53,993 bases of DNA from a virus. How positions within the stretch are numbered: position 1 is the stretch's first letter; every line of letters starts with the position of its first letter. The position numbers were made by a program, and so were the translations under genes. Below are positions 18,373 through 26,697 of this stretch, in pieces. Location of the stretch: positions 1 to 53,993 of the IMG/VR virus record IMGVR_UViG_3300049927_000029. The stretch is one strand, 5' to 3'. The notes below the pieces were generated by a model, which did not search any database, was not told the origin of the DNA, and saw only the letters and a list, made by a program, of their open reading frames with translations.

Positions 18373-18840
18373 ATGGCGGGCAAACGGCAGGTAGAAGCGC
18401 GGTGGGGGTTAGAGTTCTGGCAACTGGTGCGGGACTTTGCGGACCAGGGGCTACCACGGTGCGACGTAGCCAAAGCGCTCGGGTATACCCGAGACGGGTT
18501 TTACGCATTGTTGACAGCTAACCCTAGCCGCGACCCTTTCGAAGGCTCAAACATCGTCGCAGCCTACATCCGAGACTCCGGCGAAGGGTTCCGGGAGGCC
18601 TTGGAGCGTATGAGGGACGAAGGCAGGTCATGGGAATATGCCGCAAAGGCGATCGGGTATTGCGACGGTTCAAGGCTGAAGCGGGCCGCGCAAATGCGGG
18701 GGGTGATGATCGAGCTGCGAGGTAAACCGGGAAGGCCGCGAAGCACCGTATCCCGAAAACCAACCGTGTCGAATTTCACCACTAAATGGCCGAGCTGGAA
18801 CAAAGTTTACGCAATGGGGAAATCCAGTGGATCTAAGTAA
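18373..18840 (+). CDS. Duplicated-HTH DNA-binding protein (155 aa)
   Basis: Two segments look like helix-turn-helix motifs: residues about 25-45 (LPRCDVAKALGYTRDGFYAL) and about 80-100 (SWEYAAKAIGYCDGSRLKRA). A basic tail follows (KPGRPRSTVSRKP). Such proteins often sit beside phage replication genes. The ATG has AAGGAGAAG upstream; the end overlaps the polymerase exonuclease gene by 14 nt in another frame. Confidence 0.65.
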   Translation: MAGKRQVEARWGLEFWQLVRDFADQGLPRCDVAKALGYTRDGFYALLTANPSRDPFEGSNIVAAYIRDSGEGFREALERMRDEGRSWEYAAKAIGYCDGSRLKRAAQMRGVMIELRGKPGRPRSTVSRKPTVSNFTTKWPSWNKVYAMGKSSGSK

Positions 18841-19900
18841 ATGCATTTTCCTCGACACGGAAACGTTCTGCGAAACGCCCATCGGCAATGGTACGCACCG
18901 TTATGCAGAAGGCGCCGAGATCATCATGTGGCAGTGGGCGGTCGGCGATGGGCCTGTAGAGATTCGCGATGGGGATGAAGACATCAGCGACTTGCTGGAA
19001 CTCTTAGAGGATGAAAGTTATGAAGTGGTTATCCACAATTCGGCGTTTGATCGGAATGTCATCAGACACGCCACCGGAATCGGTATCCCCGTCGAGCGAG
19101 TCTTCGACACCATGGTCTGCGCTATGGCCCACTCTCTCCCCGGGAGCCTTTCTACTGTTGGAACCATCCTTGGCGTTGCCCAAGACAAAGCGAAGGATAA
19201 AGAAGGCCGCGCATGGATTGCGCTATTTTGCAAGCCTCAACCGAAGGGGCGGAAGATTCGTCGTGCGACGCGGAGTACACACCCGATAGAGTGGCAACGC
19301 TTCCGCGACTATGGCGGCCTTGACATCGAGGCGATGCGCGAGATCTACAAAAAGCTGCCACGCTGGAACTACCGCGGCGCTGAACGCGAACTGTGGCATC
19401 TCGACCAGAAGATCAACGAACGCGGCGTGCTGATGGACCTGGATCTGGCACATGCCGCAATCCGCGCTTCAGATCGCGCTCAGAAGATCCACGCGGCTGA
19501 TGCAGTGCGTTTGACCGATGGCGCCGTGACCAGCGCCAACCAGCGCGACAAGATGCTGGAGCACATCCTGGAGGCTTACGGCGTCGGGCTCCCCGATTTG
19601 CAGATCAGCACTTTGGAGCGTCGCATTGACGATCCGGATTTGCCGGTTGAGTTACGCGAACTACTGGCCGTCCGGCTGCAGGCCTCTAAAACGTCTGTCA
19701 GCAAGTACAAACGTGCGATCAGCGGTACGAGTAGTGACGGACGCATGCGCGGCACAGCGGCGTTCTGCGGGGCCATCCGCACGGGCAGGTGGGCGGGCCG
19801 GCTACTTCAGCTGCAGAACCTGCCGAGACCTTCTATCAAGAACAAAGAGATCGATCTGTGGATCGAGGCGCTCAAAAATGACGCGGAAGACCTCGTATGA
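18827..19900 (+). CDS. DNA polymerase family A, part 1: 3'-5' exonuclease and thumb region (357 aa)
   Basis: GTG start at 18827 with GGGGA upstream. Exo I FLDTET (about 8-13), Exo II HNSAFDRNV (about 70) and Exo III YGGLDIEAM mark a DnaQ-type proofreading domain in residues 1-185. Residues 185-357 are the thumb and entry to the palm, ending at RTGRWAGRLLQLQNLPRP and EDLV. In intact phage polymerases this runs on into motif A; here the chain stops and a methyltransferase gene intervenes before the palm resumes at 20613. The two parts presumably assemble, or this fragment works alone as a nuclease. Confidence 0.85.
   Translation: MDLSKCIFLDTETFCETPIGNGTHRYAEGAEIIMWQWAVGDGPVEIRDGDEDISDLLELLEDESYEVVIHNSAFDRNVIRHATGIGIPVERVFDTMVCAMAHSLPGSLSTVGTILGVAQDKAKDKEGRAWIALFCKPQPKGRKIRRATRSTHPIEWQRFRDYGGLDIEAMREIYKKLPRWNYRGAERELWHLDQKINERGVLMDLDLAHAAIRASDRAQKIHAADAVRLTDGAVTSANQRDKMLEHILEAYGVGLPDLQISTLERRIDDPDLPVELRELLAVRLQASKTSVSKYKRAISGTSSDGRMRGTAAFCGAIRTGRWAGRLLQLQNLPRPSIKNKEIDLWIEALKNDAEDLV
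19888..19900 (+). repeat. 13-bp direct repeat, left copy
   Basis: AGACCTCGTATGA, identical to 20604-20616. It contains the end of the first polymerase ORF and the ATG of the methyltransferase; the preceding GGA completes a Shine-Dalgarno. The pair brackets the methyltransferase gene exactly. Confidence 0.8.
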
Positions 19901-20616
19901 ATTTGATGAAAGGCGATTGCCTGGAAATGATGAAGCTTATTCCGGAGGGCTCTGTGGAAATGGTGCTTTGTGATTTGCCTTACGGTACGACGCAGAACAA
20001 GTGGGACGCAGTTATCCCATTCGACCAGCTTTGGGCGGAATACCGGCGGATTTGCAAAGGCGCGATTGTCTTGACCGCTGCGCAACCTTTCACATCCGCG
20101 CTAGTTATGAGCAACCCTGGACTATTCAAGTACCAATGGGTTTGGGAAAAGAGCGTGGCAACAAACTTCTTGAACGCCAAGAAACAACCGCTGCGCAATC
20201 ACGAAGACGTACTGGTTTTTTATGCTGAGCAGCCTACCTATAACCCTCAAATGGTGCCAGGGGAACGAAAGACATCTAGACGGGTAGGTACGAAGACAAG
20301 CAACTACGGCAAAGCCGATAAGGAAACTTTTTACGATTCGACCGAGCGCTACCCTCTTAGTGTCCAGCGTTTCGGCTCCAGAATTGACGGTGCAGCACTG
20401 CACCCCACCCAAAAGCCTGTCGCGCTAATGGAATACCTGATCCGTACCTACACGAACGAAGGCGACACCGTTCTCGATAACACCATGGGCAGCGGCACCA
20501 CCGGCGTTGCGTGCGTAAACGCAGGCCGGAAATTCATCGGCATTGAGCGCGATGATAAATACTTTGCCATCGCGCAGAAACGTATCGAAGACGCGATGTA
20601 TGGAGACCTCGTATGA
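19897..20616 (+). CDS. DNA (adenine or N4-cytosine) methyltransferase, class beta (239 aa)
   Basis: Motif IV DLPYG (about residues 27-31) precedes the SAM-binding DNTMGSGTTGVACVNAGR (about 192-209), the permuted order of beta-class amino-methyltransferases; HPTQKP before it is also typical. It would methylate adenine N6 (or cytosine N4) at an unknown site and protect phage DNA from restriction or mark it for regulation. No restriction partner is adjacent. The gene is inserted between two halves of the polymerase and overlaps each by 4 nt, with the 13-bp repeat at both ends. Confidence 0.85.
   Translation: MNLMKGDCLEMMKLIPEGSVEMVLCDLPYGTTQNKWDAVIPFDQLWAEYRRICKGAIVLTAAQPFTSALVMSNPGLFKYQWVWEKSVATNFLNAKKQPLRNHEDVLVFYAEQPTYNPQMVPGERKTSRRVGTKTSNYGKADKETFYDSTERYPLSVQRFGSRIDGAALHPTQKPVALMEYLIRTYTNEGDTVLDNTMGSGTTGVACVNAGRKFIGIERDDKYFAIAQKRIEDAMYGDLV
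20604..20616 (+). repeat. 13-bp direct repeat, right copy
   Basis: AGACCTCGTATGA, the second copy, containing the methyltransferase stop and the ATG of the polymerase palm ORF. Confidence 0.8.
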
Positions 20617-22460
20617 CGACGGTGATGGAAGCATGCAGCAGTGCGATACGCGGCCTTATAATCGCACCGCCTAAAAAGAAACTGGCTATCGCGGATTTGT
20701 CAAACGTAGAAGGCAGAGTGCTCGCTTGGCTGGCCGGTGAAGCATGGAAGCTCCAGGCGTTCCGTGAGTACGATACGCAGCTCGGATTAGACGGCGTTTG
20801 GTATACAGGCGAAGAGATCAACGCAGAGGCATTGCGAGGGTCACCAATCCCTGTCGAGCTGAACGCTAAAGGCGATCCAGTAACGCTCGGCCACGACCTT
20901 TACAAACTAGCCTACGCCAAGGCTTTCGGCATTGACGCGGCAGATGTCGACGGGTTCATGCGGCAGATCGGCAAGACCATGGAACTCGCTCTCGGGTTCG
21001 GCGGAGGGTGTGGCGCGTTCATTACCTTCTCGCTCGCATTCAACATCGACCTGGAAGCAATGGCGGAGAAGGCTTACGACAACATCCCAAAAAGCACCAT
21101 GGCTGAAGCCGAAAGCTTCCTCGAATGGCAGCTCGGTCAGGGCAAAAGCCAGTTTGGTTTGAGTGATCGCGCGTACACAGTCTGCGAATCCTTTAAACGC
21201 CTGTGGCGCGAATCCCACCCTGCGATCAGCAGCTACTGGAAGGATCTTGAAGAAACAATCCGTCGCGCGATCAACAACCCCGGACAGACATTGACCTGTC
21301 GAATGCATAAGGTTCGTCGGGACGGCGCTTGGCTTCGAGTCATGTTGCCGTCAGGTCGCTACCTCTGCTATCCATCCCCACGCGTAGAGGACGACGGGCA
21401 GATTACTTATATGGGCATTAACCAGTACAGCCGTAAGTGGGAACGCTTGCGCAGCTATGGTGGAAAATTCGTTGAAAACTGCATCGCCGAGGGGACCGAA
21501 GTTCTTACCGAGAAATTCGGATGGCGGGCTATAGAACGTGTGACACCTGATACCAGAGTGTGGGACGGCGACGAATGGGTATCCTTCTCCCATTGTCATT
21601 ACAGCGGTAAACAAACTACTATTCCAACCTACGGCGTTCACATGACGCCTGATCACTTGGTTTTGACCGAAGAGGGTTGGAAGAATGCATCATCGTGCGG
21701 TGGATATAACCGGGCTGCGTGTCGGTTACCTGACGGCTATCAGATACCAGGGTTCGACCGGAAAGAAATCGATGTGGGAAGTGGCGTGCGATTGCGGGAA
21801 AGTCATTCTGATGGACCCTTCCCAGTTGAAGAAGCACGCAAAGAGAGGAGTTCGGTGCTCATGTGGCTGCATGCGCAAAGCTACCCAATCCGAGAGGAGA
21901 ACACGCCACGGCATGAGTCAGCACCCCGCTTTCGCGGTTTGGCGCGCAATGATCGATCGATGCAGGCTACCGACGCATCATGCTTACAAAAACTATGGCG
22001 GTCGGGGAATAACGGTCTGCGACAGATGGCAGGAGTTATTCGAAAACTTCTGGGAAGACATGGGCGAGAAGTACAAACCGGGGCTGACATTGGAGCGCTT
22101 GGACAACTCGTTAGGCTATTCCAAGGAGAACTGCGACTGGCGTACCCGAAAGCACCAAGCGAACAACACTCGGCGCAACCACTGGTTAGAAACGCCACAC
22201 GGCCGGATGACGCTGATGGAAGCTTCCGAGTTCTACGGAGTGGGCTACACGACTTTGATGTACCGCCTGGATCACGAGTGGCCGATAGAACAAGCGCTGA
22301 TACCCGTAGGGTCTTCGACCTTGTTGATTGCGGACCACGCTCTCGGTTTGTTGTGAGAGGCACCGACGGCTTGCCGCTGATCGTCCACAACTGCACGCAG
22401 GCAGCCGCCCGCGATGTCATTGGGCGATCAATGCCGAGGATTGAAGCATGGAGACCGTAA
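20613..22460 (+). CDS. DNA polymerase family A, part 2: palm/fingers with intein (615 aa precursor)
   Basis: Motif [14 protein letters not shown] (about residue 30) supplies the first catalytic Asp, and motif [19 protein letters not shown] (about 113-130) the O-helix. Residues 1-289 and 594-615 are polymerase, with the intein at 290-593. The host sequence is cut at [12 protein letters not shown], a highly conserved palm site. After splicing the chain would end at MPRIEAWRP, before motif C, which lies on the next ORF in the -1 frame. The start overlaps the methyltransferase stop (ATGA) with GGAGA upstream. Activity needs assembly with the fragments at 18827 and 22448. Confidence 0.85.
21480..22391 (+). 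mobile_element. Polymerase intein (304 aa) with splicing ends and dual-coding middle
   Basis: In the polymerase frame the intein starts with Cys1 in [15 protein letters not shown] (block A) and has block [14 protein letters not shown]. It closes with block [18 protein letters not shown] and block G LIVHN, followed by Cys+1. All residues expected for a class 1 Cys-type intein are present. Only about 70 N-terminal and 35 C-terminal residues look like splicing domain. The roughly 200 residues between have no motif in this frame and are the shadow of an endonuclease gene read in the +1 frame (21685-22356). Confidence 0.9.
21685..22356 (+). CDS. Out-of-frame homing endonuclease nested in the polymerase intein (223 aa)
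   Basis: Complete gene in the +1 frame of the intein. The ATG at 21685 has AGAGGG at 8 nt and the TGA ends at 22356, before the intein's own end. A zinc ribbon (CDCG...CSCGC, residues 35-60) is followed by the widespread phage endonuclease core: [34 protein letters not shown] and [21 protein letters not shown]-terminal HTH-like segment ([20 protein letters not shown]) probably reads the target. It would cut intein-less polymerase genes and drive homing. Related to the helicase-intein enzyme at 24784. Family members are often labelled AP2/HNH. Confidence 0.9.
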   Translation: MHHRAVDITGLRVGYLTAIRYQGSTGKKSMWEVACDCGKVILMDPSQLKKHAKRGVRCSCGCMRKATQSERRTRHGMSQHPAFAVWRAMIDRCRLPTHHAYKNYGGRGITVCDRWQELFENFWEDMGEKYKPGLTLERLDNSLGYSKENCDWRTRKHQANNTRRNHWLETPHGRMTLMEASEFYGVGYTTLMYRLDHEWPIEQALIPVGSSTLLIADHALGLL

Positions 22461-22645
22461 AGCAGTTCGACCAGGGTTTCGAGATTGTCGTAACGGTACA
22501 CGACGAAATCATTTGTGAGGCGCCAGACGATCCAGCCTTTAGCGATGGGGTTTTAGCCGCCCTCATGGCCCAAGGCGAAGATTGGACAGAAGGCTTACCG
22601 CTCGCCGCAGCCGGCTTCGAAGCGTATCGCTACCGGAAAGGTTGA
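22448..22645 (+). CDS. DNA polymerase family A, part 3: motif C segment (65 aa)
   Basis: A 65-residue ORF in the -1 frame relative to part 2 and overlapping it by 13 nt. It carries motif [13 protein letters not shown] with the second catalytic Asp, and the usual polymerase C-terminus [21 protein letters not shown] stands 7 nt before its ATG, so reinitiation after the upstream stop is plausible. The first nine residues (METVKQFDQ) have no counterpart in the normal link between MPxIEA and GYEIV. A programmed -1 shift is unlikely because no slippery heptamer is visible. Without this piece the polymerase cannot work. Confidence 0.8.
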
Positions 22646-22667
22646 CGGCGAGTTCTATCTAGGAATA

Positions 22668-22695
22668 CTATCTAGATTCTACGGTTTCTAGATAG
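22668..22695. repeat. 9-bp inverted repeat between polymerase and HNH cassette
   Basis: CTATCTAGA (22668-22676) and TCTAGATAG (22687-22695) form a perfect stem with a 10-nt loop, preceded by a direct copy of CTATCTAG at 22655. It lies in the 60-nt gap between the polymerase end and the zinc-ribbon/HNH pair; AT-rich compared with neighbours. It may be a terminator-like hairpin or a boundary of the mobile cassette. Confidence 0.6.
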
Positions 22696-22705
22696 GTTAA
22701 ATGCG

Positions 22706-22864
22706 ATGCGCGAACAAGTATATTTCGGTCGGCTTTGTCCGAAGCACCCTGAGCTTAAGGGTGAACGCTGGATCAAGTCATACCGCTGCGTTGAATGCCT
22801 GCGGATCTACGCGAAGAAATACCGCGATGCGAAAAAGGAGATCAAAAATGGCGCCGACGCTTAA
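22706..22864 (+). CDS. Zinc-ribbon microprotein beside HNH gene (52 aa)
   Basis: Starts at 22706 and overlaps the HNH gene by 17 nt in another frame. Residues CPKH (11-14) and CVEC (28-31) form a zinc finger, followed by a Lys/Arg helix. This resembles small proteins that precede HNH nucleases in phage mobile cassettes. Probably nucleic-acid binding. Confidence 0.55.
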   Translation: MREQVYFGRLCPKHPELKGERWIKSYRCVECLRIYAKKYRDAKKEIKNGADA

Positions 22865-23384
22865 GGGTTTCACTCGCGAGTATTTGGCGTCGCTGTTCTC
22901 CTACGATCCGGAGACCGGGCGGATTACCCGTTTAGTCACTGCGGGGCCCATAGGTCGATACGGCAAAATACTTGAGTCTCCACATAACGCCGGGTACACC
23001 CAGGTCGCGCACAAAGGTAAACGGATGCTACTGCATCGCTTGGCCTACTTCTTACATACCGGAGAAACCCCGCAGGAAATCGATCACATAAACCATGATC
23101 GGAAGAACAACCGCTCCGAGAATTTAAGGGCCGCAACAAGCTCCTTGAATAAATGCAACGCTCCTATTCGGGTGACGAATAGCTCAGGGTTCAAAGGCGT
23201 TTGGTATGACAAGAGCAGGAATCGCTATACGGCTCAGTTTCAGTACCAAGGGGTAAATCGCCGGTTAGGGAGATTCAAAACTGCTGAAGAGGCTGCGCGG
23301 GCGTATGACAGGGCCGCGGTGGAAGCAGTGGGCGAATTCGCATTGACCAACGCAAAAATGGGATTGCTTAAGGAGTGCGTGTGA
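22848..23384 (+). CDS. HNH homing endonuclease with AP2 domain (178 aa)
   Basis: The ATG at 22848 has AAAGGAG at 8 nt; the longer open frame to 22701 overlaps the zinc-ribbon gene and is rejected. The HNH core is LLHRLAYFLHTGETPQEIDH followed by INHDRKNNRSENLRAAT. The C-terminus is an AP2-type DNA-binding domain (GFKGVWYDKSRNRYTAQF, then KTAEEAARAYDRAA). Free-standing enzymes of this type move within phage genomes. It sits between polymerase and VRR-NUC genes and overlaps the latter by 1 nt, so it has been fitted into the operon without breaking it. Confidence 0.85.
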   Translation: MAPTLKGFTREYLASLFSYDPETGRITRLVTAGPIGRYGKILESPHNAGYTQVAHKGKRMLLHRLAYFLHTGETPQEIDHINHDRKNNRSENLRAATSSLNKCNAPIRVTNSSGFKGVWYDKSRNRYTAQFQYQGVNRRLGRFKTAEEAARAYDRAAVEAVGEFALTNAKMGLLKECV

Positions 23385-23719
23385 TGCTGGAAAGAGACAT
23401 TGAAGCGCACCTGGTGAAACGGTGTAAGGAGATCGGGGCGCTCGCGGATAAATTTACTTCTCCGAGCCGGCGTTCGGTCCCTGATCGGCTGATCACCTTT
23501 AACGGGCGCGTGCTGTTCGTTGAGCTGAAAGCTACCCGGAAGGAACCGACAGAGGCCCAATACAGAGATCACGACAGACGCAGGGAAGTAGGGGCGGAAG
23601 TTGTGTGGACGGACAGCAAGAAGGGATGTGATTCCTTGTTGCATTCTTTGCAACGCGGCGAAAAGGTGCCGGTCTTCTCAAACTGGCAAGTGCACGAGGA
23701 AATCCACCTTGGCGATTGA
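23384..23719 (+). CDS. VRR-NUC nuclease (111 aa)
   Basis: ATG at 23384 with AAGGAG upstream. PDRLITFNGRVLFVELKA gives the PD...(D/E)xK active site of the VRR-NUC family, and residues up to 80 (GAEVVWTDS) complete the fold. Small VRR-NUC proteins are typical companions of the SNF2-type helicase in phage replication clusters and probably act as structure-specific nucleases. The end overlaps the helicase start by 11 nt. Confidence 0.85.
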   Translation: MLERDIEAHLVKRCKEIGALADKFTSPSRRSVPDRLITFNGRVLFVELKATRKEPTEAQYRDHDRRREVGAEVVWTDSKKGCDSLLHSLQRGEKVPVFSNWQVHEEIHLGD

Positions 23720-26021
23720 ATACAAACCGCACGCCTATCAAGGGCTAATCATGTCCGCTATCCATGCGACCAGGCGTTTGGCCGTGTGGGCCGGAATGGG
23801 GCTCGGCAAGTCGGTCAGCACGGCCACGGCGCTGGAAGACCTTTCGCTTACTGAGGATGTCTATCCGGTCTTGATCGTCGCACCGTTGCGCGTAGCGCGT
23901 ACCACTTGGCCGCAGGAGTACCAGAAGTGGACCCACCTTAAGCATCGCCGTGTCGTGACGATCTGCGGCGCGCTCAAGGAACGTCAAGCGGCGCTACGCA
24001 TGAAGGCTGATGTCTACACGGTCAACTTCGAGCAGCTTGAATGGCTGGTCGAGCAGCTAGGCGACAAATGGCCGTTCCGCACAGTGGTAGTCGACGAAGC
24101 AACCAAGCTCAAGGGTTTCCGGCTGCGTCAAGGTACGCGACGCGCTAAAGCCCTGGCCCGAGTTGCACATACCAAGATCAAGCGCATCATTCTGCTGACC
24201 GGTACGCCGAGCCCTAACGGTCTCCAAGACCTTTGGGGGCAGATGTGGTTCGTTGATAAGGGTGATCGTCTCGGGCGCACCTACGACGCCTTTAAGCAAC
24301 GCTGGTTCCGCGCTTCGCATACCGGGTTTGGCGTAGAAGCCACAGATCAAGCGCAAGAGCAGATCCAAAAAGCGTTAGGTGACGTGTGTATCACGATTGA
24401 CGCCGCAGATTGGTTCGACCTAAAAGAGCCGATCGTGAACGTGATCCGCGTAGAGCTGCCCTCGGCCGCACGCGTCCTTTACAAGAACATGGAAAAGCAA
24501 ATGTTCATGGACCTTGAAGGGTCGCAGGTTGAGGCGTTGAATGCCGCCGCTAAGACGCAGAAGTGCATCGCGGAAGGTACTGAAATCCTGACCGACTCCG
24601 GCTGGAAACCGATTGAGCGATTCGCCCAAGGGGATCTGGTGTGGGATGGGGTCGAATGGGTAAGTGTCTACAAATTAGCTTGCCACGGCTATAAGTCTGT
24701 CGTAGATTGCTTCGGAGTCACCATGACGCCAGACCACAAGGTGCTGACCGTCGAAGGGTGGAAAACCGCCGAGGAGATAAACAATGACGGTACAGTTGAC
24801 AGGCAAAGTGTTCGGCTACCTGACAGTGCTGGGGCGCTCGGGGTCCACGGACACCATAGCGCGGAGAGCGCTATGGGAAGCGCAATGCGTGTGCGGGAAG
24901 GTCATAACGTGCATCGGTACAAATCTGCGCAACCCCAACAGGGGAGAGAAGAAGTCTTGCGGGTGCAAGCGCCGGGAAATGCTCTTGGATGCTTGGGGTA
25001 CTCACGGCATGTCGAAGCACAGGGCTTTCCACACGTGGAGCAACATGAAATCCAGGTGCAGCAACCCAAACGACAAAGACTGGCCCAATTACGGCGGTCG
25101 GGGAATTTCGGTTTGCGAACGGTGGCGCGATTCGTTCGACGCTTTTTGGGAAGACATGGGCTCGACTTATTCGGACGATCTTACGATCGAGCGCAAGAAC
25201 AACAATGGCAATTATCAGGCAGACAACTGTCGATGGGCTACGGTTCGGGAGCAATCAAACAACACACGCTTCAACGTATGGCTGAATACTCCGGCGGGGC
25301 GTATGACGGTTGCGCAGGCGGCCAGGTTCTACGATATCAAGACTGTAACGCTTCGGGCCAGGTTGAAGAAAGGATGGCCGGTACTACGGGCGTTAGGCTT
25401 GTCTACGACCTTATCAACGCGGGTCCAAGACACCGCTTTACCGTTCGAGGAACAGACGGTAAGCCATTGATTGTCCACAATTGTTTACAAATTGCCAGCG
25501 GAGCGGCATATGTGGAAGGCGGACCGCAGTGGAAAAAGATTCATGACGAGAAGCTGAACGCATTGGAGGAAATCCTCGAAGAAGCTGCCGGCATGCCGGT
25601 GCTCGTGGCCTACAACTTTAAAAGCGATCTGGCGAGGCTCTTGGCGCGCTTCCCCCAAGGCCGACACCTGGACAAGAAGCCGGAGACGATCGACGCGTGG
25701 AACGCCGGAGAGATCCCGATCATGTTCGCCCACCCGGCCAGCGCTGGTCACGGTTTGAACCTGCAGGACGGGGGCAATATTCTGGTGTTCTTCAGCGTCA
25801 ACTGGAACTTGGAGGAGCATCAACAAATCATCGAGCGTAACGGGCCGGTGCGCCAACTGCAGGCTGGCCACAACCGCCCGGTGTTCCACCACTTCATCCT
25901 GGCCGCTGACACCGTGGACGAACTGGTATTGGAGCGCCTGCAGACCAAACGAGAGGTGCAGGAGATACTTCTAAAAGCGATGAGGGATAACGGATTTAAC
26001 CCTATAGAGGACGCGGCATGA
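23709..26021 (+). CDS. SNF2/DEAD-type helicase with intein (770 aa precursor)
   Basis: Start set at TTG 23709, with GAGGA at 8 nt and inside the VRR-NUC end; a start at 23601 would overlap that gene by over 100 nt. Motif I GMGLGKS (about residues 33-39), motif II VVDEATKLK, motif III LTGTPSPNGLQDLWG, and after the intein motif V SAGHGLNLQ and motif VI IIERNGPVRQLQAGH define a phage superfamily 2 helicase/translocase of about 464 residues once spliced. The intein occupies residues 286-591, at K-T-Q-K/C-L-Q-I in motif IV. Likely role: remodelling replication or recombination intermediates. Confidence 0.85.
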   Translation: MAIEYKPHAYQGLIMSAIHATRRLAVWAGMGLGKSVSTATALEDLSLTEDVYPVLIVAPLRVARTTWPQEYQKWTHLKHRRVVTICGALKERQAALRMKADVYTVNFEQLEWLVEQLGDKWPFRTVVVDEATKLKGFRLRQGTRRAKALARVAHTKIKRIILLTGTPSPNGLQDLWGQMWFVDKGDRLGRTYDAFKQRWFRASHTGFGVEATDQAQEQIQKALGDVCITIDAADWFDLKEPIVNVIRVELPSAARVLYKNMEKQMFMDLEGSQVEALNAAAKTQKCIAEGTEILTDSGWKPIERFAQGDLVWDGVEWVSVYKLACHGYKSVVDCFGVTMTPDHKVLTVEGWKTAEEINNDGTVDRQSVRLPDSAGALGVHGHHSAESAMGSAMRVREGHNVHRYKSAQPQQGREEVLRVQAPGNALGCLGYSRHVEAQGFPHVEQHEIQVQQPKRQRLAQLRRSGNFGLRTVARFVRRFLGRHGLDLFGRSYDRAQEQQWQLSGRQLSMGYGSGAIKQHTLQRMAEYSGGAYDGCAGGQVLRYQDCNASGQVEERMAGTTGVRLVYDLINAGPRHRFTVRGTDGKPLIVHNCLQIASGAAYVEGGPQWKKIHDEKLNALEEILEEAAGMPVLVAYNFKSDLARLLARFPQGRHLDKKPETIDAWNAGEIPIMFAHPASAGHGLNLQDGGNILVFFSVNWNLEEHQQIIERNGPVRQLQAGHNRPVFHHFILAADTVDELVLERLQTKREVQEILLKAMRDNGFNPIEDAA
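24564..25481 (+). mobile_element. Helicase intein (306 aa) with splicing ends and dual-coding middle
   Basis: Cys1 in CIAEGTEILTDSGWKP (block A), block B MTPDHKVLTVEGW, block F VYDLINAGPRHRFTVRG and block G LIVHN followed by Cys+1. The ends match those of the polymerase intein closely (shared CIAEGTE, MTPDH, VLT-EGWK, GTDG-PLIVHN), so the two are relatives in different host genes. The central 200 residues have no motif in this frame and are the shadow of the endonuclease gene read at +1. Confidence 0.9.
24784..25470 (+). CDS. Out-of-frame homing endonuclease nested in the helicase intein (228 aa)
   Basis: Complete gene in the +1 frame of the intein. GAGGAG (24771-24776) lies 7 nt before the ATG at 24784, and the TGA ends at 25470, 11 nt before the intein ends. 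Zinc ribbon CVCG...CGCKRR, core THGMSKHRAFHTW, WPNYGGRGISVCERW, FWEDMG, TIERKNNNGNYQADNCRWAT, and a C-terminal HTH-like segment (MTVAQAARFYDIKTVTLRAR). It has the same domain order as the enzyme in the polymerase intein. The canonical L-x-R-x-D-N reads T-I-E-R-K-N-N here, so one acidic position is changed, which may matter for cleavage. Confidence 0.9.
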   Translation: MTVQLTGKVFGYLTVLGRSGSTDTIARRALWEAQCVCGKVITCIGTNLRNPNRGEKKSCGCKRREMLLDAWGTHGMSKHRAFHTWSNMKSRCSNPNDKDWPNYGGRGISVCERWRDSFDAFWEDMGSTYSDDLTIERKNNNGNYQADNCRWATVREQSNNTRFNVWLNTPAGRMTVAQAARFYDIKTVTLRARLKKGWPVLRALGLSTTLSTRVQDTALPFEEQTVSH

Positions 26022-26419
26022 AGCTGAAAAAGGCGGAGCGCGAACAGGTTCGTATGAAGTACGGCGGGCGCTGCGCTTATTGCGGAGTGGTTCTATCCGA
26101 TCGGTGGCACGCCGACCATCTTGTGCCTGTACAAAGGGAATTGCTTTCAAAGCAAAACGCTAATGGTACTTGGCGTTTGGATTCCGGTAAGCCTCTAAAG
26201 CCGGAGAACGACACCGTAGAAAATATGATGCCGGCGTGCGCGCCATGCAACATCAGCAAAGGCGCTCAGACGTTAGAAGGGTGGCGTAACTGGATCGCCG
26301 GCCATGTGAACAGCCTGAACAGTTACCACCCAATCTACAGATTGGCGAAAGCATATGGGCTGATAACTGAAACCGCCGCGCCGGTAGTGTTCTACTTCGA
26401 AAAGGAAGACCTAGTATGA
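26018..26419 (+). CDS. HNH nuclease, McrA-like (133 aa)
   Basis: CAYC near residue 20 and ACAPC near 86 form the zinc pair; HADHLVPVQRE (about 33-43) and N-M-M-P-x-C...N-x-S-K carry the HNH residues. The protein is longer than the packaging HNH gene and belongs with replication genes, overlapping the helicase stop (ATGA). It may be a free-standing mobile nuclease or a repair enzyme. The end GGAAGACCTAGTATGA doubles as SD and overlapped start of the next gene. Confidence 0.8.
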   Translation: MKLKKAEREQVRMKYGGRCAYCGVVLSDRWHADHLVPVQRELLSKQNANGTWRLDSGKPLKPENDTVENMMPACAPCNISKGAQTLEGWRNWIAGHVNSLNSYHPIYRLAKAYGLITETAAPVVFYFEKEDLV

Positions 26420-26697
26420 CCCAACAGAAAACCGGCGGCAGCGTCGACTATTACAAATGCCACGTCGCTGATCCCATTTCCAAAGGCGAACCGTACACCG
26501 CCGAGAGCATCGACATTATCGAAGCGCTTGGTATGACCTTCGCGGAAGGTGAAGCGTTTAAAGCGATCTGGCGTACCTGCACTGGCCGCATGGGCGGCGC
26601 GGTAAAGGCGGACAACAAAGCGTTGTACAACGCTGAGAAAGTCGAATTCTTCGGCGCTCGCATGGTGCGGGCCGCGAAAAGGAGTGAAGCGAAATGA
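26416..26697 (+). CDS. Phage hypothetical, DUF3310-like pattern (93 aa)
   Basis: Ninety-three residues with SVDYYKCHVADP, then IDIIEALGMTFAEGEAFKAIWR. This is the arrangement of small phage proteins related to the SaV/DUF3310 type (DxIxA, F..G...K-x-I-W-R). These are thought to bind nucleotides or partner with nucleotide enzymes, but the function is not known. Coupled on both sides. Confidence 0.55.
   Translation: MTQQKTGGSVDYYKCHVADPISKGEPYTAESIDIIEALGMTFAEGEAFKAIWRTCTGRMGGAVKADNKALYNAEKVEFFGARMVRAAKRSEAK

Follow-up and report, generated by a model that had tools for sequence, protein, structure and literature searches.

Phage inteins with an endonuclease gene nested in a second reading frame: the helicase intein of a metagenomic viral contig and its relatives

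Background

Conventional full-length inteins, such as the one in the portal gene of Mycobacterium phage Cane17, combine a Hint domain and an endonuclease in a single element, the endonuclease being of the LAGLIDADG type and in frame with the intein. In split inteins ("fractured genes") a free-standing endonuclease gene lies between the Hint halves and is translated by itself. In this article we describe an intein in the DNA helicase gene of a virus (IMG/VR record IMGVR_UViG_3300049927_000029, positions 1 to 53,993; this whole stretch of 53,993 nucleotides is referred to as the window) in which Hint domain and endonuclease also form one element, but where the endonuclease is encoded by a nested gene in the +1 frame instead of in frame as in canonical inteins, while one continuous frame, unlike in split inteins, joins both Hint halves.

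Several described phages carry comparable arrangements. P45/P46 of phage APSE-1 (NC_000935) belong to the same intein clade, contain a nested +1 gene and are 33% identical to our element over the whole intein frame; the APSE-1 intein, however, resides in the polymerase rather than the helicase gene, and P46 is annotated from an internal start. We found no paper treating APSE-1 P45/P46 as a system. In the "intein-containing DNA polymerase precursor" of Salmonella Jerseyvirus EnJE6, an endonuclease belonging to this superfamily is likewise nested in an intein, but there it is in the +2 frame. Similar to our locus in that an out-of-frame HNH gene is inserted with the host frame intact is the ShiLan domain, an insert described in 2025 that leaves a phage methylase frame open and in which no intein, intron or ribosome-binding site was detected (PMC11855218). 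In contrast, the locus described here has both a Hint domain and a Shine-Dalgarno (SD)-like site, and so does not fall among inserts with no splicing domain. Another phage with an out-of-frame HNH gene in a methylase is reported in PMC12613952, and passages in two further papers (PMC5418858 and PMC8425127) mention inteins or homing endonucleases and not this layout. A literature search outside of which lay preprints and most subscription journals returned no paper on inteins with out-of-frame endonucleases.

Results

The helicase open reading frame (ORF) at 23601-26021 matches phrog_62 (DNA helicase) as a whole-ORF profile with E=2.9e-143; all features given below are on the plus strand. The ORF consists of the N-extein (23601..24563, with the ORF start as listed; the homologous helicase probably starts at TTG 23709 rather than at 23601), the intein (24564..25481, 306 codons without a stop, identified by sequence, predicted Hint fold and empty alleles) and the C-extein (25482..26018, covered by the phrog_62 match). 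The intein begins with CIAEGTEILT and ends with IVHN followed by Cys, the junctions being KTQK/C...HN/CLQ. It contains the class 1 motifs, namely Cys1, the block B TxxH, the C-terminal HN and Cys+1. Cys1 and TPDH (residues 55-58) lie in the Hint N-terminal part (24564..24788), and the C-terminal part (25389..25481) ends with HN before Cys+1. In a set of 37 intein sequences C1, T55, H58 and N306 are invariant and H305 is found in at least 90%. The sequence-only reading had proposed an intein at 24564-25481, and these boundaries stand, with the helicase frame open from Cys1 to HN/C.

For the intein frame (37 sequences), AlphaFold2 predicts with high confidence a Hint fold that is interrupted by ~180 residues of disordered linker: block means of the predicted local distance difference test (pLDDT) are 93-98 for residues 1-80 and 95-96 for residues 281-306, and values fall below 50 for residues 93-181 and 203-272. 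A Foldseek search with this model yielded 8 matches with E<=0.001, all of them inteins, with Ssp DnaB and Mtu RecA at the top and a best E of 4.9e-4.

The nested gene (24784..25470, +1 frame, 228 aa plus stop) matches phrog_374 with E=4.8e-58, "HNH endonuclease" being the library's own label, and it shows codon-position bias. Its offsets were exact as first described: the nested ATG lies 220 nt after the first base of Cys1 and the stop ends 11 nt before the intein end. An intein of the same type, recognized by sequence and codon-position comparison, is present in the polymerase gene (21480..22391), with a nested +1 endonuclease gene of 223 aa plus stop (21685..22356; phrog_374, E=7.5e-57). The two copies had been said to have identical geometry, which is slightly overstated: the layout is the same but the offsets differ, being 205 and 35 nt in the polymerase copy versus 220 and 11 nt in the helicase copy.

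Significance of the overlap was assessed with a shuffle test in which the endonuclease protein and codon usage are held and synonymous codons are shuffled, with 20,000 trials per copy. For the helicase copy, where 7.6 stops are expected, the host frame was stop-free in 1 of 20,000 shuffles; the polymerase copy, where 6.2 are expected, gave 6 stop-free shuffles out of 20,000. The actual third frames contain 12 and 17 stops, respectively. Endonuclease homologues outside inteins served as the control, and all 16 have stops (4-30, about the expected number) in the would-be host frame. The overlap of the two frames is neither a product of chance nor a frameshift artefact.

Both frames are under constraint. 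Between the helicase intein and its relative at locus L003 (L with a number denotes a locus in our set) the endonuclease is 78% identical and the linker in the intein frame 47%. At intein-frame codon positions 1/2/3, Hint-N has 5/5/20 substitutions and Hint-C 1/1/6, while the middle has 95/45/19, which is the third-position bias of the endonuclease frame as it appears in intein-frame positions. The polymerase intein compared with L015 behaves alike (4/1/24, 81/26/22 and 2/0/5). In the last block, where the endonuclease ORF is still running, the intein frame is the constrained one; in the helicase copy the endonuclease tail here (25411..25467, residues 210-228) is predicted to be disordered. 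Summed over 16 non-overlapping +1 pairs drawn from the whole set, one containing the window's helicase copy and one its polymerase copy, Hint-N gives 114/70/302 in the intein frame, and the middle, counted at endonuclease codon positions, gives 380/301/1073. The frame switch is missing in 2 of the 16, both of the APSE type, more than 95% identical and with few substitutions. The corresponding middle counts are 39/18/82 for the single +2 pair and 26/15/63 for Salmonella versus E. coli +2 inteins.

The survey of relatives was based on 215 sequences (214 loci and the window); three relative searches provided the best 80 of 423, of 284 and of 230 relatives. The Hint-N profile gave 208 matches, of which 13 were excluded for lack of a Hint-C in the same ORF, and the remaining 195 collapse to 130 distinct inteins, of which 121 are long (252-325 aa) and 9 short (109-166 aa). 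Since nested inteins supplied the seeds of the Hint profiles, coverage of other intein clades is incomplete. The frame of the endonuclease, assigned with a profile built from seven nested genes, is +1 in 96 of the 121 distinct long inteins and +2 in 24; one further copy (L074/L200) is decayed, its endonuclease being fragmented between frames 0 and +1. In-frame endonucleases in relatives had been named in advance as the observation that would speak against a stable, heritable element and for a double-frameshift artefact; they were looked for, and 0 of 121 have the endonuclease in frame alone. With the layout kept in relatives and both frames constrained, the earlier claim of a stable, heritable element is borne out, and out-of-frame nesting, far from being peculiar to this phage, is the norm across the intein clade sampled. 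An endonuclease remnant in +1 is kept by 4 of the 9 short inteins, as expected if the endonuclease was lost by in-frame deletion.

In the overlap regions of the 121 long inteins the host frame has 0 stops versus 779 expected in sum, and the third frame has 1,484; an open host frame was, however, an entry condition for this set. When that condition is dropped (137 entries), Hint-N and Hint-C share an open frame in 126 and share a frame with 5 stops in one (L059), Hint-C is in another frame in 4 (two with undetermined bases), and no Hint-C is in range in 6, these being four short inteins that failed the spacing filter, one at a contig end and the frame-broken L209.

By host gene, the 130 inteins comprise 68 polymerase +1, 27 helicase +1, 23 polymerase +2, 7 polymerase short, 2 helicase short and 3 unassigned, the decayed copy being counted as +1. 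Two inteins of the clade occur in one host ORF or contig at L019, L020, L021, L060, L081, L176 and L207; at L060, L081 and L176 the two differ in endonuclease frame, one being +2 and one +1. A Hint tree, which has few columns, weak support and many open forks, requires at least 4 frame changes and at least 3 host-gene changes, and the two window inteins are not mutual nearest relatives in it. We considered whether either window intein had recently been copied from its own gene to the other and rejected this, as the tree puts the helicase copy with L002/L003 and the polymerase copy with L015.

Empty sites were searched for with the joined helicase flanks as the query. In the best 80 of 230 relatives, 77 align across the site without an insert, at up to 99% protein identity, and 3 align only from the site onward, being intein-bearing contigs. 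At the DNA level the site is spanned in 27 of the best 80, for example as AAGACGCAGAAG/TGTTTGCAGATCGC in L219. In the contig L015/L221 the polymerase gene is occupied by its intein and the helicase site is empty. Intein-free alleles at a conserved site belong to the picture of a class 1 intein, and on these alignments the element appears to be mobile.

We also examined 13 inteins in named phage records, 12 of which have the endonuclease out of frame, the thirteenth being the conventional Cane17 portal intein. The nested gene is in +1 in APSE-1, Caulobacter RW, Shewanella SFCi1 and Streptococcus Javan113; in +2 in EBPR siphovirus 2, Pseudomonas MR14, Salmonella EnJE6, Escherichia Pubbukkers, Sodalis SO-1 and Vibrio 97.13; and in +1 with a different nuclease in Corynebacterium phi673 and Vibrio K391. 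For Vibrio 97.13 alone the shuffle test was not significant (P 0.15). Near matches of the EnJE6 intein occur in 163 phage records, 145 of them Salmonella, and those of the K391 intein in 34 Vibrio records; these are sequence matches, with the frame read in EnJE6 and K391 themselves. The APSE-1 and SO-1 records list both overlapping genes, and the K391 record has no nested gene annotated over the intein. In the SO-1 record (L298) the polymerase and nested HNH gene are called a "type I self-splicing intron", although what is inserted is an intein whose nested gene lies in +2.

A second Hint group (PF14890) shows this layout too, the nuclease there being unrelated. Two loci, L043 and L097, have an additional intein of this group upstream in the same helicase gene. 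Inteins of the group with a +1 DUF559 protein were found at L043:1699-2538, L097:837-1706, L302-L307, L308 and L309, and the +1 proteins match DUF559 with E=3.4e-11 (L043), 1.4e-6 (L097), 1.1e-11 (phi673) and 7e-12 (K391). They have 0 host-frame stops versus 5.5-11.8 expected in eight IMG/VR copies, some of which are near-identical, and 8.5 and 12.6 in the two phages, and the substitutions switch frame between Hint-N and the middle in 3 of 3 pairs.

Discussion

We consider it very probable that the helicase element is a mobile class 1 (Cys1) intein whose homing endonuclease is a separate, internally started gene in the +1 frame. The computations establish the two frames, the constraint on each, their conservation among relatives and the empty alleles; from there we infer the following course of splicing, internal initiation, cleavage and homing. 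Ribosomes on the helicase frame would traverse all 306 codons and yield a single precursor, in which a disordered shadow-frame linker lies between the two Hint halves and from which spliced helicase should arise through the action of the Hint domain. Separate ribosomes would initiate at the internal ATG 24784 behind AGGAG and produce a free HNH-type endonuclease, which is expected to cut intein-free helicase alleles at KTQK/CLQ, after which repair would copy the whole element. Selection would maintain both coding in the endonuclease frame and the absence of stops in the intein frame.

Several findings weigh against this interpretation. The host frame is broken while the nested ORF is open in L059 (5 stops), L099 and L190, and it is also broken in L209. 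The host-frame stops are located at L059:3001-4000, L099:3001-4200, L190:136-1200 and L209:2738-3900, and a long +1 ORF persists in the first three; such relatives could represent copies on the way to loss, split inteins or genomes with a changed code. In addition, the bases of the SD-like site double as codons for conserved intein residues. The remaining points concern the nuclease itself. The Pfam search of the nested endonuclease gave no nuclease match, Foldseek of its model (mean pLDDT 82.8; below 50 in the last 19 residues, over Hint-C) against PDB gave none at E<=0.001, and the best PDB profile match, I-HmuI, is weak (E=0.16), aligning over the HNH-like region (about residues 128-173; 25165..25302) with Arg137 where I-HmuI has the HNH His. 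A further structural comparison of the model (VIA) extended mostly over residues 1-70 and placed I-HmuI, at Z 3.2, amid unrelated entries. Searching PDB sequences with the endonuclease as a single sequence found nothing, and a profile comparison of alignment A6 with the window's AP2/HNH protein was negative. DNA cutting by the nested family, as judged from these comparisons, appears to be the weakest link.

The alternative that fares best is that the nested gene is translated but has ceased to be, or never was, a homing nuclease, its product acting for example as a DNA-binding or regulatory protein, and that the element now spreads with the phage genome only. The replaced His and the missing Pfam and fold matches speak for it. 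The Arg, however, is invariant in 38 of 38 aligned family members and hence represents a family norm rather than decay, the nested frame is under purifying selection, the DUF559 nests belong to a nuclease-like family, and occupancy is sporadic, with 3 of the best 80 helicase loci filled and the L015/L221 contig occupied in the polymerase and empty in the helicase gene. On this evidence we regard it as unlikely.

Less probable by a clear step is production of the nested ORF as an intein-endonuclease fusion by programmed frameshifting, for which both frames are available on the same mRNA. A TAA in the +1 frame (24778..24780), one codon upstream of the nested ATG, closes that frame and leaves almost no room for such a fusion. 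The nested start moreover has an SD-like AGGAG (24772..24776) 7 nt upstream of the ATG, in bases that also encode the intein residues AEEI. In 32 relatives the anti-SD energy at the nested start has a mean of -7.0, with 25 of 32 at or below -6, compared with a mean of -3.1 and 120 of 983 at or below -6 for internal in-frame start codons; only relatives with a single candidate start were used, since choosing the best of several would be biased. The SD-like sites support initiation at the internal ATG, although short of proof because of their second role as codons for conserved residues.

Group I introns frequently carry out-of-frame endonuclease genes, and if the insert were a self-splicing intron of this kind, with the endonuclease gene inside it and the host frame open only incidentally, that would be in line with the annotation of the homologous SO-1 insert. 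This reading is nevertheless highly improbable, given no Rfam match at E<=1 within 18500-26600, a Hint sequence and fold with Cys1, TxxH and HN/C, and a host frame that is kept open and constrained in the Hint blocks. We give virtually no credence to the idea that a double frameshift or an assembly error has disguised an ordinary intein whose endonuclease is in frame, for although the window is a single metagenomic contig, none of the 121 long relatives is in frame alone, sequenced isolates have the same layout and the substitutions switch frame across the 16 +1 pairs.

Taken beyond this locus, we lean towards the view that phage inteins are colonised by endonuclease genes that stay autonomous and out of frame, and that this is a common and convergent architecture, as far as our literature search goes undescribed in print, with at least three combinations (phrog_374-type HNH in +1, HNH in +2 and DUF559-type in +1) among phages infecting Proteobacteria, Firmicutes and Actinobacteria. 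The way in which inteins acquire endonucleases has long been a puzzle, since fusion in frame would seem to be a rare event. If the view is right, mobility of a mini-intein needs no in-frame fusion; a stop-free shadow frame suffices, and out-of-frame nesting would be the easier route, since a complete gene can be inserted into a mini-intein in whichever frame keeps the host frame free of stops. Nesting would also uncouple splicing from endonuclease production and account for missed or odd annotation, as in K391 and SO-1. These inteins further provide a natural set of long overlapping genes, in each of which a structured product is encoded over a disordered one, and their phages can be propagated and studied on laboratory strains.

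Neighbouring genes

The helicase gene is flanked by two more free-standing HNH genes (22701-23384 and 26018-26419, one with HNH_3 and AP2), which lie near both inteins. The family-A DNA polymerase is encoded in two ORFs with a DNA-methylase-like gene between them (18827-19900, 19897-20616 and 20613 onward), joined by ATGA-type overlaps. Just past the polymerase intein the polymerase C-terminus shifts frame (22386-22645, with matches at 22386-22445 and 22475-22639), which reflects a frameshift, an error or a damaged gene.
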